Shown here piece after piece: positions 1,256 to 9,946 of a DNA stretch of 20,020 nucleotides. The stretch spans positions 1 through 20,020 of IMG/VR virus record IMGVR_UViG_3300047369_000739; one strand, written 5' to 3'. The notes under the pieces are model-generated. The model did no database searches and was not told the origin of the DNA. It worked only from the letters and a program-made list of their open reading frames with translations. Numbering within the stretch: position 1 is the stretch's first letter; each line of letters begins with the position of its first letter. The position numbers were made by a program, and so were the translations under genes. This DNA comes from a virus.

Positions 1256-3795
1256 GATACAAAAACCCATTTCCAGTAGGTGTTAAATTACCAGAAATTA
1301 GCGTACCAGATAAAACCTTAGAATCTTTAGGTTTAAAACATGGTAGTTCCAGCTTGGAGATCTTGAAGCAACTGTGCAGAAAAGGTCTTAGAGATAAATC
1401 TTTAACGGAAGCTGACAACAGAAAAGATTATTATGACAGGGTTCAAATGGAGATTGACATCCTTGATGACCTTGGTTTCGTAGACTATATACTCCTAAAC
1501 TGGGATATTATGGACTTCTGTAAAAGGGGTGGAATCCCTACTGGCGCTGGAAGGGGTAGTGCGGCTGGTAGTTTAGTTTTGTTTCTTTTGGGGGTAACTA
1601 ACATAGACCCAATTAAATATGAATTGTTTTTTGAAAGATTCGTATCTAAGAGCAGAGCTAGGAAAATTGAACATGAGGGAGAGGTTTTTCTTGATGGCTC
1701 TCTACTTGCTGATATTGATAATGATATCTCTTATGATCGGAGGATTGAAGTTATTAAGTATATTGAAGAAAAATTCGAAGGCAAAACTTCTAAAATCCTA
1801 ACTCTAAATACCCTTAGTTCTAAACTATGCATGAAAGAGTGTGGAAAGATTGTTGATGAGCTTTCAGAGATGGATGTTAACCAAATCAGCGATACTATTC
1901 CAAAGCATTTTGGCAAGGTTGCAAAACTTGACGTTGCGTATGAGGAGAGTGAATCTTTTAAAAAGTTTGCTGACAAATATAAAAAATCCTATAAAATAGC
2001 CAAAAAGTTAGAGGGTCTTATTAAAAATACTGGAGTACACCCTTCTGGCATATCTATCAGCTATTATAGCCAAGAAGATATAATGCCATTGCAGAAAACC
2101 AACGACGGAGCTTTGGTTTCTGGTTATGATATGGATGATGTCGCAAGCCTTAGTGTTAAGTTCGATATACTCGGACTGAGGACGCTTTCTGTTGTTCACG
2201 ATACATGTAATCAAATTGGCGTTAAGGCGTCTGAGATCGATCCTAGTGACGAAAGCATCTACGCTGCTCTTGCTTGTCTTGAGCAACCGAAGGGGTTATT
2301 CCAAATCGAGGCTGATACGAACTTTAAAGTATGTAGGCAAATAGCACCTAAAAGCCTTGAACAGCTTTCTGCAGTAGTTGCCATTGCTCGCCCTGGAGCT
2401 TTGGACTTTAAAGATAGATATGCCGACTATGCCAGAACTGGAGATTTCCAATCTGTTCATGAGTTTTTCGACGATATTCTTAGTTACACTGGAGGTATTC
2501 CGCTTTATCAAGAGCAGTTAATGAAAATGGCTGTTAAGGTTGGGTTCAGTCTTGATGAATCAGAACAGCTTAGACGAATCGTTGGTAAAAAGAAAGTGGA
2601 AGATATGCCAGCTTGGAAGGCTAAAATCGAAGATAAGATTAAAGAGAAAAATCTAGATCCAGTTATTGGAGATGTTTTATGGAAGGTGGCTGAAGATTCA
2701 GCTAACTACTCTTTCAATAAGTCTCACAGTATATCGTATGCATATCTAGCGGCTATAACCGTTTACCTCAAGTTTAATCATCCTCAAGAATTCTTCTTAA
2801 GCCTACTGAAAATGTCCAGGTTTGAGCCTAATGCTCATGAGGAAATAGCAAAGATATCTCAAGAGCTTTCATTTTTTGATATTAAGTTATTGCCACCTGA
2901 TCTGAATCTTTCTGATTTTGATTTTAAGATTGAAGGTAAGAACATTAGATATGGACTCAATTCAATTAAAGGCGTATCAGAAAAAGTTATAGAGTCTTTG
3001 ATAGACTTCAGAGAAAGCAGTTTTGAAAACAAGTATGATGTTTTTATAGCCGCTAAAGATTGTGGTGTTAATATAGGAACTATGTCGGCTTTTATTCAGG
3101 CTGGGTTGTTGGATTCTTTTGTCACTTCTGATCGTTGTAGGTTGGTGCTAGAAGCTCAAACATTTAATATACTTACGGACAGAGAGAAGAGAAATGTTAT
3201 CGAACTTGGGCAAAAGTTTGATTACGATATATTGAATACAATCCATTCCTGCAGAAGTGAAAACACACCAGCTGATGATGGTAGAGTTCTTTTTGCTGAT
3301 AGAAGATTTAATACGTTCAAGAAAAAATATGATCCATACAAAAATATTTACCAGCAAAACTCTAGTCATATAAAATATGCAAACTGGCATTTCGAAAGCA
3401 AACTTCTTGGTTATAGTTATTCTCACAATATTAGAGAGATATTTACAAGCGGTGATGAAGCCTCTTTTAAAACCTCAGAAGAGGTTAGGAACAGCGATGA
3501 AAGACGCAGGGTTAAATTTGTTGGCGATGTAACAGATATTATTAAAAGGACAAGTAGAAATGGCAATAAATATGCAAGAGTTGAACTGCAGGATGAGCTA
3601 GGTTCTGTTTGCGGTTTATTTTTAGATTCTGATAGAGAAGAAAGGTTGACAAACTATTTAAACTCTGGTAAAAAGTTACCTAAGAAGGGCGAGATTGCCA
3701 TCATTGTTGGTAGCGTCGGCGAAGATGTAGTCTTTATTGATAAGATAGAGACCATCCAAGAAAAAATTTATATGAAATTATCTGAACTAAAATGA
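1252..3795 (+). CDS. dnaE: DNA polymerase III alpha, polymerase body without PHP domain
   Basis: This 847-aa protein starts just after the PHP-palm linker of normal DnaE and continues through palm, thumb, fingers and an OB fold. Visible landmarks are GAGRGSAAGS (98-107, incoming-nucleotide loop), LADIDNDIS with D156 and D158 aligned to the two catalytic aspartates of E. coli alpha (D401, D403), KFDILGLRTL with D305 aligned to the third (D555), GVHPSGISIS (261-270), and SANYSFNKSHSISYA in the fingers. LLGYSYSHN precedes an OB fold at about 753-800. All three catalytic aspartates are kept, so the enzyme should be active. About 15 extra residues sit between FERFV and ADIDND. I see no canonical QxxLF-type clamp-binding motif at the usual place before LLGY. 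ATGA overlaps join it to the exonuclease upstream and the Clp gene downstream. Confidence 0.93.
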   Translation: MRYKNPFPVGVKLPEISVPDKTLESLGLKHGSSSLEILKQLCRKGLRDKSLTEADNRKDYYDRVQMEIDILDDLGFVDYILLNWDIMDFCKRGGIPTGAGRGSAAGSLVLFLLGVTNIDPIKYELFFERFVSKSRARKIEHEGEVFLDGSLLADIDNDISYDRRIEVIKYIEEKFEGKTSKILTLNTLSSKLCMKECGKIVDELSEMDVNQISDTIPKHFGKVAKLDVAYEESESFKKFADKYKKSYKIAKKLEGLIKNTGVHPSGISISYYSQEDIMPLQKTNDGALVSGYDMDDVASLSVKFDILGLRTLSVVHDTCNQIGVKASEIDPSDESIYAALACLEQPKGLFQIEADTNFKVCRQIAPKSLEQLSAVVAIARPGALDFKDRYADYARTGDFQSVHEFFDDILSYTGGIPLYQEQLMKMAVKVGFSLDESEQLRRIVGKKKVEDMPAWKAKIEDKIKEKNLDPVIGDVLWKVAEDSANYSFNKSHSISYAYLAAITVYLKFNHPQEFFLSLLKMSRFEPNAHEEIAKISQELSFFDIKLLPPDLNLSDFDFKIEGKNIRYGLNSIKGVSEKVIESLIDFRESSFENKYDVFIAAKDCGVNIGTMSAFIQAGLLDSFVTSDRCRLVLEAQTFNILTDREKRNVIELGQKFDYDILNTIHSCRSENTPADDGRVLFADRRFNTFKKKYDPYKNIYQQNSSHIKYANWHFESKLLGYSYSHNIREIFTSGDEASFKTSEEVRNSDERRRVKFVGDVTDIIKRTSRNGNKYARVELQDELGSVCGLFLDSDREERLTNYLNSGKKLPKKGEIAIIVGSVGEDVVFIDKIETIQEKIYMKLSELK

Positions 3796-6233
3796 GTGTA
3801 TTTAATAACGTGATATTTAAAGATTTTAACTTAACACCGAGGGCAAAGAAGGCTTACAAAGATGCTTACGAGCTATCTAAAGATTTAGGTCATAACAATA
3901 TTAATAATTTACATGTGGCTTATGGTTGCGCACAAAACATGCCGTCATCCCTAAGTAATTTAATAAAAAGCATAAACTATCCTTTCGAGTCTGAATTTAT
4001 TTATGACAAAATTATTTCGTGTCAAGAAAGCACTTCTTTAAGTGATAAATTCTACATTAATAAAAACTCAGACCCTTGGCATAAGGAAGTTATAGATTCA
4101 ATAACTTCTGCCAACGATGTATCTCAAAGTCTTGACCACCATTATGTAGGTATAGAACATATACTTTTGGGTATATTAGAAACGTCTTTTTACGTTTTTC
4201 CTAACGCTGGTTTAAATGGTTTTAAAGAAGCTCTTGAAAATTATGCAGAAGGCGATAAGTCAGACTTGCAAGAAGACGCTTTATATCTTGACGATCTCCT
4301 TGCTGATTTTGGTGATCTTACTTCTGTTAATCTAGAAGATGCGAATCAACATAGTCAATCAGAAACCCCTAAGTTTCTAACTAGCCTAAATGATCTTTAT
4401 TGTCAAGGCAACTTGCCAGATGTTTTTGGTAGGGATGAAGAAATAAAGCTTGTCATAGAGACTATTTCCAAGAAGAGTAAAAGCAATGCCATACTAACTG
4501 GTGACGCTGGAGTCGGCAAAACTGCTATCGTTGAAGCGTTAGCTACTCGGATATGCAAAGCAGAAGTACCATCTACTCTTTTAGGTATGGAGATAATGAG
4601 CGTCGATCTGGGGACAATGCTTTCTGGAACTCAGTATAGGGGTCAATTTGAAGCTAAGTTTAAAGAGTTGCTGGAGATGGCTAAAGAGAACCCTCATATT
4701 ATCTTGTTCTTTGATGAGATACATACGATATTTGGCGCAGGAGGCAATCAAGAAGGTAGTGTTGATGCTGCTAATATGCTAAAGCCTATGCTTGCTAGGG
4801 GTGAAATTAAATGCATAGGATCTACAACATCGGAAGAGTATGAGAAGATATTCAAAAAAGACTCAGCGATGAAAAGAAGATTCTTTAATATCGAAGTCCA
4901 AGAACCAAGCGTTGAAGAAACCAAAAAGATACTTTACAACTGCAAAGCTAAGTATGAAGAATACCATAATGTAAAATACAGTAAGCCCATCATAGATTGT
5001 GTTGTGGACTTGGCTGATAATTTAATAAGCAACAAAAACTTCCCAGACAAGGCTTTCGATGTTATTGATCAGGTGGGTTCTAGAGTTAAAATAGCAAACT
5101 CCAAACCTTGCAAGAAGCTTGTTAACAGCCATAAAGATTTTGTAAATTTATTATCAAGGGGGGATGTTTCTGTTGACGATGTCAAAGACAAGTTTAATTC
5201 TTTTTTGGCTGACTTAAATGAATCAAACGAAGAGCAATCTTCTAAATCTGTTATGATTAAAAAAAGCGATGTATTGAATGTTATTTCTGAGCATAGCAAA
5301 ATTTCCGTAGATCAGATAAAAGAAAGCAGACAGGGTTTTTGTTCGTTCTCCTCCAGGATGCACAAAGAGGTTTTCGGTCAGAACCATATTCTTGACAAAG
5401 TCAATGACTTACTAAGTTGTGCTAAAGCTGGCTTGATAGAAGATAATAAACCGTTAGCTAGTATGTTCTTTGTAGGTCCGACGAGTGTTGGTAAGACTTA
5501 TACAGCGAAGAAGATAGCTAAGAACTTTTTTGGGAATGAGAAAGCTATATTGCAAATCAATATGAGCGAACTTTATGATAAAACAGGCATTAGTAAACTT
5601 ATTGGATCTAATGCTGGCTACGTAGGTCATGAAGAAGGAGGATTGCTTACTAAATTCATGAGAGATAACCCTAATTCGGTAGTTCTTTTCGATGAGGTCG
5701 AAAAAGCAGATCCTCAGGTTTTAAATTTGTTGCTTCATCTTCTTGATGAGGGTTACATAGAAGACAACAAGCATAACAAGATTGATTTTTCTAAGTCAAT
5801 AGTCATTTTAACTAGCAATATTGGTCATGAAACCGCATCAAAACCTAGTATGGGTTTTGTGCAGGATGAAATAGATCTGACCGATTCTTATAAAAATTCC
5901 GTTAAGGGTAAGCTTAAGCCTGAACTTTTGGCTAGGATAAATGATGTTTTGGTTTTCAATCAACTTGGTGATTCTGATGTAAAGAGAATAATACAATTTG
6001 AGTTAAATGAAATCAAAGACAAGCTAAAAACAAAGAATATAGCTATGAACATTAAAAGTGCGTCAATTGATTGTATTTTTAATGATATTAAAAACCAAGA
6101 CATGCACGTAAGAGATATAAAAAGATACATCAGGGAAAAGATTCAAGTCCCGATTGCTCGTCTCGTAGTTCAAAGCTCAAAAACTTCAGAAATTTGCATA
6201 AAAAGTGTTGACAGTAAGATAAACATATCCTAA
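3792..6233 (+). CDS. ClpC/ClpA-like AAA+ unfoldase with two ATPase domains
   Basis: This 813-aa protein has the class I Clp layout: an N-terminal Clp repeat domain (about 1-150), AAA1 and AAA2. AAA1 carries Walker A GDAGVGKT (about 237-244), pore loop GTQYRGQFE, Walker B ILFFDEIH (about 304) and arginine pair KRRF. AAA2 carries Walker A GPTSVGKT (about 562-569), pore loop GYVGHEEGG, Walker B VVLFDEVEKA and an arginine finger in LLARINDVLVF. The long ClpB middle domain is absent, so this is not a disaggregase of the ClpB type. M687-G688-F689 lies where ClpC, ClpA and ClpX carry the IGF/IGL/VGF loop that docks on ClpP, which suggests delivery of substrates to a host protease. It is the last gene of the replicase operon (ATGA overlap), so remodelling or degrading replication or host proteins is plausible but inferred. 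Confidence 0.92.
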   Translation: MSVFNNVIFKDFNLTPRAKKAYKDAYELSKDLGHNNINNLHVAYGCAQNMPSSLSNLIKSINYPFESEFIYDKIISCQESTSLSDKFYINKNSDPWHKEVIDSITSANDVSQSLDHHYVGIEHILLGILETSFYVFPNAGLNGFKEALENYAEGDKSDLQEDALYLDDLLADFGDLTSVNLEDANQHSQSETPKFLTSLNDLYCQGNLPDVFGRDEEIKLVIETISKKSKSNAILTGDAGVGKTAIVEALATRICKAEVPSTLLGMEIMSVDLGTMLSGTQYRGQFEAKFKELLEMAKENPHIILFFDEIHTIFGAGGNQEGSVDAANMLKPMLARGEIKCIGSTTSEEYEKIFKKDSAMKRRFFNIEVQEPSVEETKKILYNCKAKYEEYHNVKYSKPIIDCVVDLADNLISNKNFPDKAFDVIDQVGSRVKIANSKPCKKLVNSHKDFVNLLSRGDVSVDDVKDKFNSFLADLNESNEEQSSKSVMIKKSDVLNVISEHSKISVDQIKESRQGFCSFSSRMHKEVFGQNHILDKVNDLLSCAKAGLIEDNKPLASMFFVGPTSVGKTYTAKKIAKNFFGNEKAILQINMSELYDKTGISKLIGSNAGYVGHEEGGLLTKFMRDNPNSVVLFDEVEKADPQVLNLLLHLLDEGYIEDNKHNKIDFSKSIVILTSNIGHETASKPSMGFVQDEIDLTDSYKNSVKGKLKPELLARINDVLVFNQLGDSDVKRIIQFELNEIKDKLKTKNIAMNIKSASIDCIFNDIKNQDMHVRDIKRYIREKIQVPIARLVVQSSKTSEICIKSVDSKINIS

Positions 6234-6245: not shown

Positions 6246-6470
6246 ATGACAAATACAAAACAAAACAAAATCATGAAAGCAATCCGTAACAGCAAAGGTC
6301 GTTTCTTCGGTCTTTACACCAAATCTGGAGAAGCTCTGAACGCTCAGTTTGTTGCAGAGAGTCCTCAGTATGTGACTGTTTATGATCGGAATGCAAAAAA
6401 CAAACGTAAGTTTGCTAAGACAAGTCTAAATGGTCTTAAGCTCCAGGGTTCTAAAATCGGCTCGGTTTAG
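6246..6470 (+). CDS. small conserved-looking phage protein of unknown function, 74 aa
   Basis: This is a 74-aa basic protein (many Lys and Arg, ending KLQGSKIGSV). Residues 17-60 read as a small beta-rich domain, with the core KGRFFGLYTKSGEALNAQF and a second strand pair around YVTVYDRN. The text suggests an SH3- or OB-like barrel that contacts nucleic acid, but I do not recognise a named family, so this is inference from composition. It stands apart from its neighbours: a 12-base gap separates it from the Clp gene, and it has its own consensus-like promoter ending 9 bases before the ATG. Such a small, strongly promoted gene is probably made in quantity. The start at 6246 is the only reasonable ATG, and there is no ribosome-binding site upstream. 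Confidence 0.8.
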   Translation: MTNTKQNKIMKAIRNSKGRFFGLYTKSGEALNAQFVAESPQYVTVYDRNAKNKRKFAKTSLNGLKLQGSKIGSV

Positions 6471-6478
6471 GTTGTAGG

Positions 6479-6507
6479 TTGAAAAAATAAAGCCTTCCCA
6501 TTATAAT
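6479..6507 (+). promoter_or_regulatory. near-consensus sigma70 promoter, predicted start at the ATG of the next gene
   Basis: TTGAAA (6479-6484), a 17-base spacer and a perfect TATAAT (6502-6507) form a near-consensus promoter. Counting 7 bases past the -10 puts the transcription start at 6514, which is the A of the ATG of the 352-aa gene. The mRNA would be leaderless. The left arm of a 12-bp inverted repeat lies within the spacer. Confidence 0.65.
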
Positions 6508-6548
6508 TACTATATGAACCCATATAAGTTATTTTCTGGGAAGGCTTT
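6489..6548. repeat. 12-bp perfect inverted repeat with nested hairpin around a start codon
   Basis: AAAGCCTTCCCA (6489-6500) is exactly complementary to TGGGAAGGCTTT (6537-6548), with a 36-base loop. Inside the loop TATATG (6511-6516) pairs with CATATA (6521-6526) over a 4-base loop, so the ATG at 6514 lies in the inner stem. The right outer arm is coding (residues 8-12, SGKAF). In a transcript reading through from the upstream gene this would fold into a structure that hides the start and is followed by four T residues. In DNA it brackets the -10 and start site like an operator. Confidence 0.7.
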
Positions 6549-7572
6549 TACTATTCCTATGGACAAGGAATTAAAAGATGGTCCCAATTATGATTTAATT
6601 TTAAAAATTTTATCGCATTTTGATGAAGCTATTGAAGCTGAAAAAATAACAGATATAGGTAGTAACGAGAGCTTTGATGAATATTTAATAAGCACAAAGG
6701 ATAAACTTTACAACCTCAAGCTTTCTCTGGACGAAAGCTCTCCCGTTTTATCTAGGGAGATACGTTTCTTGAAAGAAAACGAATCTATAGTAATCTCTAA
6801 ATTTTATACATCAGGCAAGATAAAGGTTGGTGTTCCAGTGTTGTATTTACTCGCGTCTCATGAAGATGGCTTGTCTGTGGATGATTTTGGGCTTAGTTAC
6901 ATAGATGATAACTTATATCCTTTTTTGTGTTGCTCGTCGGGTTTCAACAAATTGAAAACCGAAACCACCGCCGAAGAATACTTAGAGTTCTTATTTAAAA
7001 ACTTTTCCATAAAGAATAGTTCTGATTTTCTAATTGAAAACATAAGTAATAACTACGACATCGCAGATATAAAGAAAGCTTTTGATTCTATAGAATCCGA
7101 AATAAGAGAAAGTTGCAATTTAGATATATTGAGTGGAGATTCAACTTGTCACGGGTTTTTCTCTAAGAGAAATATTATAAGCAGAAACTCTTTTTTTAAG
7201 TTTAAGAATCCATCGTTTTCATTCAGAGGTAATAAACTTTACGATTTTTCATTTCTTTTGGTTAGTCTTGGTGTTTATGGTAGAGATTATGCTTATGCAC
7301 TAAAAAAATATTGTGATCTGTTTCATATCGATTATAAAGAAAACAAAATTAATTTTGATCATTGCACAAAGATAGCGTCTGGTGTCTTTTTCTATAAATT
7401 ATTCTTTGACTTTCTTATCGAAGAATCTTTATTTTTAAATTCTAGACCAGAGAAAACGTTAAGTTTGATTTCAGATTATAGCAATTCTTCCAATCATTTG
7501 AAAAGACTATCTTGTTACGACGAAGTTTCTGCTATAATAGAGAAAACAATAACTAGACAGGTTTCAGAATAA
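6514..7572 (+). CDS. probable aminoglycoside-phosphotransferase-fold protein with degenerate active site
   Basis: This 352-aa protein has the outline of the APH/choline-kinase fold but not its catalytic residues. The N lobe has a possible ATP-lysine strand YNLKLSL (K69) followed by LSREIRFLKE (80-89), like the REI..L helix of APH proteins, then VGVPVLYL. The C lobe has CHGFFSKRN (212-220) where the family has HGDxxxxN: the histidine, glycine and asparagine are kept, but the catalytic aspartate is replaced by F215. The DFG-equivalent strand reads FKFKNPSF without an aspartate, then YDFSFLLVSLG (243-253) matches the usual YDLA segment. I infer a pseudokinase or a binding protein descended from a kinase. 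The fold assignment is by eye and could be wrong. The gene has its own promoter, a predicted leaderless transcript, and a start inside nested inverted repeats. The next gene starts 56 bases downstream. Confidence 0.5.
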   Translation: MNPYKLFSGKAFTIPMDKELKDGPNYDLILKILSHFDEAIEAEKITDIGSNESFDEYLISTKDKLYNLKLSLDESSPVLSREIRFLKENESIVISKFYTSGKIKVGVPVLYLLASHEDGLSVDDFGLSYIDDNLYPFLCCSSGFNKLKTETTAEEYLEFLFKNFSIKNSSDFLIENISNNYDIADIKKAFDSIESEIRESCNLDILSGDSTCHGFFSKRNIISRNSFFKFKNPSFSFRGNKLYDFSFLLVSLGVYGRDYAYALKKYCDLFHIDYKENKINFDHCTKIASGVFFYKLFFDFLIEESLFLNSRPEKTLSLISDYSNSSNHLKRLSCYDEVSAIIEKTITRQVSE

Positions 7573-7592: not shown

Positions 7593-7623
7593 TTGAAAAC
7601 CCCTTACTATCATATAGTATATA
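7593..7623 (+). promoter_or_regulatory. sigma70-like promoter for the glycosyltransferase/recombination operon
   Basis: TTGAAA (7593-7598) is followed after 19 bases by TATATA (7618-7623); TATAAC at 7620-7625 is an alternative -10. The spacing is longer than ideal, so this is weaker than the two upstream promoters. The -35 starts 36 bases before the ATG at 7629, compared with 35 and 38 for the other two genes, so the same near-leaderless layout is repeated. Confidence 0.4.
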
Positions 7624-7634
7624 ACTATATGATA
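7608..7634. repeat. 11-bp perfect inverted repeat containing the start codon of the next gene
   Basis: TATCATATAGT (7608-7618) is the exact reverse complement of ACTATATGATA (7624-7634), with loop ATATA. The ATG at 7629-7631 is in the right arm. The right arm shares the nonamer ACTATATGA (7624-7632) with the start region of the preceding gene (6509-6517). It may be an operator over the -10 region or an RNA hairpin that hides the start in read-through transcripts. Confidence 0.75.
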
Positions 7635-8090
7635 AACTTCTACAAACCCAACTCAAAGAACTCAGGCAACGCTTTTGGTTTTCGCCTTGGTGTAAAAGGA
7701 AAAACAGACGAGCCTTGCTTGTATATGACGGCGGTTCAGCAACACTCTTGGGACCCAAAGAAGCGAAGTGGCTCGTTCTCTGGTAACTCTAAAAACCCAG
7801 AGAAATCTGCATCAATTAAGTTTAATGAGTCTGAGCTTGGCGGCTTTATTTACGCCATAGAAAACTATGAAAAATTTAATGCTTTTCATAGCTTTGACGA
7901 CAATAAAACTTCAATATCTTTAAGTCCATATACAAAAAACGACGGTACAAAAGCTTTTTCCTTCTCCGTTACTAGAAACTCCGCCAACAAATTTGGTATA
8001 GGTATGGAAATGTCTGAAGCTTATTTGTTAGCAAATTATTTTAAATTTGTATTAAACAAAATTTTTACTTACAGAACTCAATCTAAGTAA
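7629..8090 (+). CDS. small phage protein, possible single-stranded DNA-binding protein
   Basis: The product has 153 residues from ATG 7629. A TTG at 7593 in the same frame would add 12 residues but coincides with the putative -35 element, and the protein looks complete from MINFYKPNSKNSGNAFGF. The text is rich in beta-strand and polar residues: LYMTAVQQHSWD, SIKFNESELGGFIYAIEN, FNAFHSFDDNKTSISLSP and KAFSFSVTRN, ending in an amphipathic helix (SEAYLLANYFKFVLNKIF). One domain of four strands and a helix, with lysines and aromatics, recalls PC4/Whirly-type ssDNA-binding proteins. Replicase genes lie upstream and an annealing-protein candidate downstream, which fits, but the family is not certain. 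TAATG overlaps the next gene, so it opens that operon. Confidence 0.7.
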   Translation: MINFYKPNSKNSGNAFGFRLGVKGKTDEPCLYMTAVQQHSWDPKKRSGSFSGNSKNPEKSASIKFNESELGGFIYAIENYEKFNAFHSFDDNKTSISLSPYTKNDGTKAFSFSVTRNSANKFGIGMEMSEAYLLANYFKFVLNKIFTYRTQSK

Positions 8091-9946
8091 TGAGAAAAAA
8101 AACTGTACTTATACACTCTAACTTTTGTAAAGCTTTTACTGGTTTCGGTAAAAACAGCAAGAATATACTTAAATACTTATACAAGACAGGAAAGTATAAT
8201 GTAGTCGAAGCCGCAAACATGAGGATGTCTGGGGACGAGGAGCTTGATCTTCTGCCTTGGAAAAGTTTTGGAGCTATACCTAAGAATTATTCCTCTCTCT
8301 CTGCGGAGGACAAAAGGAAAGCTGGGTACGGTTATTTTGAAATAGACAAGATTGTCGAGGAGGTTAGACCTGATGTGTATATAGGTATAGAAGATATATG
8401 GGCTTTCACAGACTACCACCGCAAGCCTTGGTGGAATAAAGTAAGTTCAATGGTTTGGACTACTCTTGATAGCTTGCCCATTTTACCTCAAGCAGTTCAG
8501 TATGCCCCAAAAATAAAAAACTATTTTGTATGGGCTAGTTTTGCTGAGAAAGCTTTTAAAGAAATGGGTTATGACCACGTAAAAACGTTGCGTGGCTCTT
8601 TGGATACTGAAACTTTTTACAGAATGTCTGACGATGAAAGATGTCAACTGAGAAAGTTCCACGATATTAACCAGGATGACTTCATTGTTGGTTTTGTGTT
8701 TAGGAATCAATTAAGAAAATCAGTCCCCAATCTGCTTGATGGTTTTAAGATTTTTAAAGAAGCAAACCCCAACGCAAGGCTTTTGCTTCACACTCACTGG
8801 GGAGAAGGTTGGGATATAAACAGGCTTCTGGATGAAAAAAAGATAAGCAGAAATGACGTACTCACAACCTACTTCTGCTCCTCCTGTAATTCGTATCACG
8901 TTAAAACATTTACAGGTCAAAAGCAAACATGTAGAGAATGTGGAGAGCAAACTCTAAACACAACCAATGTTTCTCAAGGCTGTTCTGAAGAACAACTCAA
9001 TCAGGTTTACAACCTTATGGATGTTTACTGTCATGCGTTCACCAGTGGAGGTCAAGAAATCCCAGTTCAAGAAGCTAAACTTACAGAACTCATAACCTTG
9101 GTTACCGACTATTCTTGTGGTGAAGATAGTTGTTCTGAGGAGAGCGGCGGTTTACCACTTAGTTGGCACGAATACAGAGAGCCTGGAACACAATTCATAA
9201 AAGCTTCTACTGATGCTGACAGCATTAATCAAAAGCTGCAAACCGTATACGAGATGAGCAAAGAGGAAAAAGTTTCTCTAGGAAAGAAGTCTAGGCAATG
9301 GGTTATTGACAACTTCTCCATTGAAGTTGTAGGTAAAAAACTCGAGGAAATCATTGACTCTATGCCTTATCTTGATGATGACGTTGATATTAAGAATTTT
9401 ATTTTTAATGAGTTTTATGAAATGCGTCAAGGTTTAAGTAATGACGATTTTGTAATTGACATTTATAAAAACATCTTGCATGAAGACGTAGACCAAAACA
9501 CTGAAGGATTTCAAAAATGGCGCTTAGATTTGGAAACAGGAAAGGTTAATCAAGAACAGCTATATCATCACTTCATAGAGGTTGCAAGAAAAGAAAACTT
9601 AAAAAAGCCTGTCGCATTTGAAGATATGCTTTCGAAAGATGACAAGGGTAAAAGAATTGCTGTTATCATACCTCAGTCTGGTACAGATTTATTGTTTATT
9701 AATTCTCTAATGAAGAACTTGCAAAAAAAGCACAAAAATCATAACATATATATTTTCACTAAACCAGAGTTTTTCGAATATATAGAAGACAATCCCAATG
9801 TGTATAAGTGCTTGCCATATTCAGAAGGTCTTGACAATCCAATTTCAATGGAGGGTTTTGGTGAACACGAAGGTTTTTTTGAAGCGGCTTATTACCCATC
9901 GACTACGACCCAAAAGGTTCCATGCTACATACATAACGGAAATTAA
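8090..9946 (+). CDS. GT4-type glycosyltransferase with zinc ribbon, DUF4214-like segment and N-terminal half of a GT9 domain
   Basis: This 618-aa multidomain protein begins with a GT-B glycosyltransferase of the GT4 group (about 1-425). It has IHSNFCKAFTGFGKNSKNIL at the N terminus, VGFVFRNQLRKSVPNLLDGF as the second Rossmann strand, and TSGGQEIPVQEAKLTE as the donor-binding E-x-P-x-x-E region. A zinc-ribbon insertion with C263, C266, C281 and C284 interrupts the C-terminal Rossmann domain. Residues about 451-502 (FVIDIYKNILHEDVDQ, then a GFQKWRLDL stretch) look like DUF4214, often attached to surface or sugar-transfer proteins. From about 516 (KRIAVIIPQSGTDLLFINSL) a heptosyltransferase-like GT9 N domain starts and is cut off by TAA at 9944. 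The rest of that fold is encoded by the next gene in the same frame. Sugar and acceptor are unknown; phage DNA, capsid or host envelope are all possible. Confidence 0.8.
   Translation: MRKKTVLIHSNFCKAFTGFGKNSKNILKYLYKTGKYNVVEAANMRMSGDEELDLLPWKSFGAIPKNYSSLSAEDKRKAGYGYFEIDKIVEEVRPDVYIGIEDIWAFTDYHRKPWWNKVSSMVWTTLDSLPILPQAVQYAPKIKNYFVWASFAEKAFKEMGYDHVKTLRGSLDTETFYRMSDDERCQLRKFHDINQDDFIVGFVFRNQLRKSVPNLLDGFKIFKEANPNARLLLHTHWGEGWDINRLLDEKKISRNDVLTTYFCSSCNSYHVKTFTGQKQTCRECGEQTLNTTNVSQGCSEEQLNQVYNLMDVYCHAFTSGGQEIPVQEAKLTELITLVTDYSCGEDSCSEESGGLPLSWHEYREPGTQFIKASTDADSINQKLQTVYEMSKEEKVSLGKKSRQWVIDNFSIEVVGKKLEEIIDSMPYLDDDVDIKNFIFNEFYEMRQGLSNDDFVIDIYKNILHEDVDQNTEGFQKWRLDLETGKVNQEQLYHHFIEVARKENLKKPVAFEDMLSKDDKGKRIAVIIPQSGTDLLFINSLMKNLQKKHKNHNIYIFTKPEFFEYIEDNPNVYKCLPYSEGLDNPISMEGFGEHEGFFEAAYYPSTTTQKVPCYIHNGN

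Follow-up and report, generated by a model that had tools for sequence, protein, structure and literature searches.

The window analysed here, the whole stretch of 20,020 bases from a virus record, encodes a DnaE-like polymerase, an exonuclease, a Clp-like AAA+ protein, two glycosyltransferase-like proteins and tail genes. Between the Clp-like gene and the glycosyltransferase genes lies the gene studied here, KIN, whose reading frame starts with ATG, encodes 352 residues and has no internal stop, just as the original prediction had described it. The peptides that had been quoted from this protein as the outline of its fold, YNLKLSL (residues 66-72), LSREIRFLKE, CHGFFSKRN (212-220) and YDFSFLLVSLG (243-253), were all found in the translation. 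The features of the locus are listed in Table 1.

Table 1. Features at the KIN locus, in positions of the window
Feature	Position	Strand	Basis or remark
ClpA/ClpB-like AAA+ protein, usual upstream neighbour of KIN	3792..6233	+	Pfam AAA_2 1.7e-50; synteny
P74, small conserved protein, function unassigned	6246..6470	+	family searches
Sigma-70-like promoter TTGAAA-17-TATAAT	6479..6507	+	sequence; probable leaderless start of transcription near the ATG
RNA hairpin around the -10 box and the KIN start, arms 6489-6500 / 6537-6548	6489..6548	+	z -6.3, z -5.6; covariation
KIN, CAK-fold (choline/aminoglycoside kinase) putative pseudokinase, 352 aa	6514..7572	+	ORF, AF2 structure, PDB matches, family alignment
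K69, beta-3 lysine, kept	6718..6720	+	Lys in 75/78 rows
E82, alpha-C glutamate, kept	6757..6759	+	Glu in 66/78 rows
F215 in place of the catalytic Asp of HGD (Asp lost)	7156..7158	+	Asp 25/78, Asn 24, other 29
N220, catalytic-loop Asn, kept	7171..7173	+	Asn in 47/78 rows
N232 in place of the Asp of DFG (Asp lost)	7207..7209	+	Asn 38/78, Asp 23/78
D244, structural C-lobe Asp, kept	7243..7245	+	Asp in 70/78 rows
P155, conserved protein, function unassigned, usual downstream neighbour of KIN	7629..8090	+	family searches; start taken as ATG 7629, longer TTG ORF begins at 7593
Glycosyltransferase with DUF4214-like stretch	8090..9946	+	Pfam, PHROGs

The two small neighbours, P74 and P155, represent conserved families that had no convincing match in the libraries searched. 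P155 had no match among PDB sequence profiles and P74 no convincing one, PHROGs contained no match to P155, and a hit of P74 to DUF5128, a beta-propeller family, was below the family cut-off and was not believed. The position of P74 varies among the phages, lying before the pseudokinase gene in some and after it in others.

The window protein alone retrieved nothing convincing in a first search of viral contigs, Pfam and PHROGs, and in cultured phages it gave only two sub-threshold stretches. By way of the Clp-like neighbour we reached four IMG/VR contigs sharing the gene order, in which KIN was 34-36% identical to the window protein and the Clp-like neighbour 75-80%. Scans with alignments of the family, of P155, of the glycosyltransferase and of the L069 type brought together 189 loci, 125 of them with a KIN member, and 81 members were distinct and at least 280 aa long. 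The profiles of separate clades match each other: in a small set of ORFs, the profile of the window's clade retrieves the L084 member (7e-21) as well as the L069 type (6e-10 to 7e-6). Searches of 50,697 phage records with L069 and L084 as queries gave no match, the L069-type alignment found no relative in genome contigs, PHROGs yielded only scattered weak matches to the KIN family, and the defence proteins of PADLOC did not match the window protein. Among the 45 closest pairs listed, dN/dS was 0.03-0.20 where computable, and KIN is therefore under purifying selection. Because there are syntenic orthologues, 81 distinct members and such low dN/dS values, the window ORF is not a chance frame.

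The slot occupied by KIN is conserved. At the 119 loci with both KIN and P155, a count that includes copies of one contig and loci partly fetched via KIN and is thus not a prevalence, the order was Clp-P74-KIN-P155 in 74, Clp-KIN-P74-P155 in 24 and Clp-KIN-P155 in 8, so that Clp, then KIN, then P155 was seen at 106 loci. KIN was present in 17 of 18 long contigs, most of which had been chosen for a known KIN. We also searched 37 further contigs from loci without KIN; nine had a match elsewhere (spanning nearly the whole profile in seven, E <= 9.4e-51) and 28 had none. The phages of the KIN-less loci are more distant, and homologues are not universal. KIN also lies elsewhere than in the usual slot in L161 and L175. 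In the L021 group of more distant phages, a protein of 170-190 aa takes the slot instead of KIN, as at L021:5467-5991, where a 174-aa protein lies between Clp and P155. The members of L016, L030, L130, L011 and L026 have 473-504 aa, 120-150 residues more than the window protein.

The original prediction had assigned the protein to the aminoglycoside-phosphotransferase/choline kinase fold and had named structure prediction with a fold search as the means by which a different fold could come to light. A single-sequence prediction was of no use (pLDDT 34.6). With the 78-row family alignment, AlphaFold2 gave a model with a mean pLDDT of 92.4, a pTM of 0.91 and no residue below 50, and this predicted structure has the expected two-lobed APH/ChoK fold. 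Its best PDB match was the choline kinase LicA (4r77), with which VIA-align superposed 273 residues at Z 19.4 and rmsd 3.7. The Foldseek top ten includes APH(4), LicA and APH(3'), and among viral structures (BFVD) Gp311 of Bacillus phage G came first, with choline/ethanolamine kinases of giant viruses among the following matches; both lists are also rich in ordinary protein kinases, and the absence of a family from them carries no weight. Sequence profiles agreed with the model. Searched against PDB sequences, the family profile hit LicA with an E-value of 3.5e-8 when built from 27 sequences and of 2.6e-7 when built from 78; at E<=0.01, Pfam Choline_kinase is matched by 14 of the 78 members and APH by 11; and the NCBIfam models for thiamine kinase, APH(3') and CotS are matched by 20, 11 and 8 members, the last weakly. 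The relative L069 barely passes the Pfam cut-off of a CAK-type family (29.1 vs 29). The window protein alone matched none of the CAK family models of Pfam and NCBIfam at E<=0.01, and the sequence match to the CAKs thus comes through its relatives and through the family profile against PDB sequences. The assignment of the window protein to the CAK fold is well supported by the predicted structure.

To place the catalytic residues, we used the alignment of the family profile to LicA, in which the CHGxLxxxNI loop falls on CHIDLVPENFI of LicA and kfiN on YLID. In the window protein, the loop CHGFFSKRN puts F215 in the place of the catalytic aspartate and FKFKN puts N232 at the DFG aspartate. Both substitutions had been anticipated, F215 for the aspartate of HGD and a missing aspartate of DFG, with the proviso that a better alignment might reveal intact residues; the 78-row alignment restores none in the window protein. 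Thus, two of the three residues beta-3 Lys, HRD Asp and DFG Asp are missing, and in the accessible text of PMC4718504 the loss of at least one of them defines a pseudokinase. Neither the catalytic Asp nor the metal-binding DFG Asp of an active CAK kinase is present. The loss of the motifs in the window protein is well supported, and the protein is probably catalytically inactive. D244 is, from its position, probably the equivalent of D220 of PKA. The most conserved other positions are D55 (Asp in 76 of 78 rows, Glu in the other two) and E303 (Glu in 74 of 78).

A profile search for homologues that keep HGD and DFG had also been suggested, and it upheld the loss in the window protein without extending it to all relatives, which are not uniformly dead. 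The count for the DFG Asp depends on the alignment, being 23 of 78 in the strict column and 39 of 78 when the preceding column is also accepted. On the lenient scoring, 21 of the 78 members have neither aspartate, while Lys, catalytic Asp, loop Asn and DFG Asp occur all together in L033 only. Some family members may therefore be enzymes, given that the HGD Asp is retained in 25 rows and the full set in one. On a tree of the quick kind, from which the motif columns were excluded and on which the numbers of changes are minima, HGD changed 7 times, DFG 8, the loop Asn 13, D244 6 and K69 2. Not every structural position stands out clearly from the catalytic ones, since D244, too, changes at least 6 times. 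The alignment indicates that the catalytic residues were lost in mosaic fashion and that the family comprises putative phage CAK-type pseudokinases, comparable to the bacterial spore kinases. A separate APH-like family was seen elsewhere in these phages, at L190:1883-5022 (the contig of L033), where four tandem copies carry HGS in three, HGD in one and a DFG-type Asp in all, and at L191:1764-2714 (the contig of L126), where there is one copy with HGD.

With LicA-type choline kinases (PDB 4r77, 4r78, 4r7b), KIN shares the whole fold over residues 23 to 335, the beta-3 Lys, the His and Asn of the catalytic loop and the C-lobe Asp; in contrast to them, it has Phe for the catalytic Asp and Asn for the DFG Asp, is only 13% identical, and is a phage gene with no choline pathway seen adjacent. 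The nearest known parallel to the phage family appears to be the bacterial spore kinases (YtaA/CotI, CotS, YutH and YsxE). As described in the accessible text of PMC2860764, these CAKs have lost activity repeatedly and independently, their authors infer a major non-catalytic function, and glycosyltransferase and sugar-nucleotide genes lie adjacent. The CAK fold, several independent catalytic losses and glycosyltransferase neighbours are thus common to both, and the CotS model is the one weakly matched by 8 of 78 phage members. However, the spore kinases are spore coat proteins of spore formers, whereas KIN lies between phage genes in a virus record, and neither allele exchange nor a start-codon hairpin is described for them in the accessible text. 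A viral example is vaccinia B12, which the accessible text of PMC6395007 presents as a virus-encoded, catalytically dead paralogue of the B1 kinase that affects infection. Like KIN as we read it, B12 is a dead kinase encoded by a virus. Unlike KIN, B12 reportedly belongs to the protein-kinase family rather than to the CAKs, and to a eukaryotic virus that has the active paralogue alongside.

The original prediction had also proposed that the gene has a strong promoter of its own. The promoter-like sequence ends 6 bases ahead of the KIN ATG and scores 11 of 12, which puts it in the top two of the 74 such sites counted across the window. This number is at the chance level (71.0 +/- 8.2 in shuffles), so what supports the promoter is where it lies and the conserved structure surrounding it, and its score, high as it is, gives no support. 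Because the -10 box is 6 bases from the ATG, transcription would begin at about the start codon and the message would be leaderless. A regular expression for promoters, run upstream of 77 relatives, matched 45 of them; it had no shuffle control and its L069-type matches lay inside the upstream gene, and it was not used as evidence.

RNA from 6478 to 6560 folds into a hairpin of -25.8 kcal/mol (z -6.3), whereas RNA starting at the ATG has no such hairpin (z -0.6). Among 11 places tested in the window, one of which was a point inside the exonuclease ORF with no annotated start codon, the KIN start was the strongest (z -5.6) and P155 the second (z -3.2). The hairpin is common to six relatives; across the 7 sequences, 94.5% of cells pair and 2 of 13 pairs have changed on both sides, and sliding the hairpin partner abolishes pairing. 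It is absent from L041 and L016, and Rfam gave no match. The 3' arm coincides with codons 8-12 (SGKAF), a peptide that may owe its conservation to the RNA and not to the protein. A different arrangement occurs just before KIN in L159, L151, L160 and similar loci, where a terminator-like hairpin with TTGAAA (the -35 box) in its loop is followed by a T-rich stretch, a TATTATA-like box and then the ATG; this looks like a composite terminator-promoter. At 7593-7640, P155 shows a second case of the arrangement at the KIN start, with a small hairpin (z -3.2) covering its ATG and a promoter-like site.

The arrangement resembles that of T4 gene e, for which the accessible text of PMC3014915 describes a hairpin that buries the start in read-through RNA and a promoter in its 5' part that yields translatable RNA. 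A conserved hairpin over the start, with a promoter at its 5' side, is likewise present at KIN. The T4 late promoters lie upstream of a ribosome binding site, whereas the KIN promoter is sigma-70-like and its start is expected at the ATG.

KIN was the least conserved of the compared genes in 78 of 98 pairs, and synonymous changes in close pairs showed that fast evolution is not the whole cause. In L112/L113, dS was 0.43 for Clp, 0.17 for P74 and 0.37 for P155, and 1.95 for KIN; in L177/L181 the neighbours had 0.21, 0.19 and 0.34 and KIN 2.73; and in L069/L071 they had 0.03 to 0.11 and KIN 1.71. Nucleotide identity falls at the edges of KIN and recovers beyond them. The converse was seen in L067/L073, in which dS was 0.15 for KIN and 0.55-1.29 for its neighbours. 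Among the 98 pairs, 10 had a close background, and KIN had a dS of at least 1 in 6 of these. A dS of 1.3-2.7 in KIN beside 0.0-0.4 in its flanks rules out drift as the sole explanation and requires allele replacement. The exchange is two-sided in L112/L113 and L177/L181. In L069/L071 and L073/L086 there is little or no sequence upstream of KIN and one flank only is seen: the L069 and L073 sequences begin just before KIN, and the L069-type order is KIN-P74-P155, with P74 downstream. In two L083 pairs the closeness is confined to P74 and P155, Clp itself being distant with a dS of 1.4-1.6. KIN alleles are thus exchanged in a conserved slot beside the Clp-like ATPase.

The kept fold, the lost aspartates, purifying selection and the exchange of whole alleles together point to a binding protein with a varying partner. 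We tentatively prefer, at somewhat less than even confidence, the reading that KIN is a CAK-fold protein that binds, without catalysis, a variable partner in the host or a competitor and is independently expressed. Such a pseudokinase, encoded in one slot common to a group of uncultivated phages, would bind rather than transfer phosphate. Its own host-type promoter by the start codon would give a translatable, probably leaderless message, while in read-through RNA from the upstream genes the start codon would be buried in the hairpin. The cleft, with the beta-3 Lys and alpha-C Glu and neither Asp, probably accommodates a nucleotide or small ligand that it does not turn over, or may merely stiffen the fold, and the surface would contact a partner that differs between hosts or competing phages. 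A variable-partner binder would explain why the gene is retained under purifying selection, why catalysis was lost piecemeal and why alleles are swapped as units. The original prediction had proposed binding of a host kinase, a metabolite or a replication protein, or a part in anti-defence, as candidate functions. Allele exchange fits a variable partner; however, swapping can also arise by recombination between conserved flanks without selection. A more specific proposal, which we consider rather unlikely as it stands, is that the slot is an allele-exchange locus for a modular recognition pseudokinase, whole alleles being swapped between the conserved Clp/P74 and P155 to match hosts or to exclude related phages.

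Several observations speak against this reading. Anti-defence genes are usually patchy, and near-universal presence in a phage group is less typical of them; KIN is nearly always present in its group, and around it lie genes of replication and of glycosyltransferases rather than known counter-defence genes. Its constancy and its place beside the DnaE-like polymerase, exonuclease and Clp-like genes, together with two conserved acidic residues away from the catalytic motifs, D55 and E303, would suit an internal protein of replication, recombination or the virion that uses the kinase fold as a pure scaffold and drifts fast as few residues matter. We regard this as unlikely, since the dS contrast with the flanks is beyond drift alone and a virion or replication homologue was not found. 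By analogy with the spore kinases, which as CAKs with repeated loss of activity adjoin glycosyltransferase and sugar-nucleotide genes (PMC2860764, accessible text), KIN might instead bind a nucleotide sugar, sugar or lipid head group and feed or regulate the 618-aa and GT9-like transferases encoded by the two glycosyltransferase-like genes 3' of it. This role seems distinctly unlikely: P155 intervenes, KIN lies outside the usual slot in L161 and L175, and across the change of KIN allele in L069/L071, L073/L086 and L112/L113 the transferase remains 97-100% identical, which means that the alleles are not matched to it. We favour a host- or competitor-facing partner over both of these readings.

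The retention of K69 and E82 raises the question of an enzyme with unusual chemistry, such as AMP transfer or cation-independent phosphotransfer through K69, E82, N220 and N232, and pseudokinases with other activities do exist, with SidJ (PMC6858067) and CASK (PMC4718504) as examples in the accessible texts. Nevertheless, both metal-binding residues, the Asn and the Asp, vary in the family and no single alternative set of residues substitutes for them, which makes an enzyme of this kind very doubtful. That KIN is a decaying, functionless remnant of a kinase gene would agree with the many losses of catalytic residues and is hardly credible, because the genome-search matches have no internal stop, the fold and the promoter/hairpin are kept, and the selection result already contradicts it.

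Spores are known to contain inactive relatives of small-molecule kinases, and our literature searches for phage pseudokinases and phage choline kinases, in the text accessible for their results, brought up no phage pseudokinase family. The near-constant presence of KIN, its exchanged alleles and the repeated loss of its catalytic residues would together be a useful sign of a protein contact on which selection changes. If the proposal of an allele-exchange slot is true, the slot would represent, in phages, an equivalent of variable immunity or anti-immunity genes built on a kinase fold, and the natural pairs of alleles in near-identical backgrounds make the idea of a changing contact testable.
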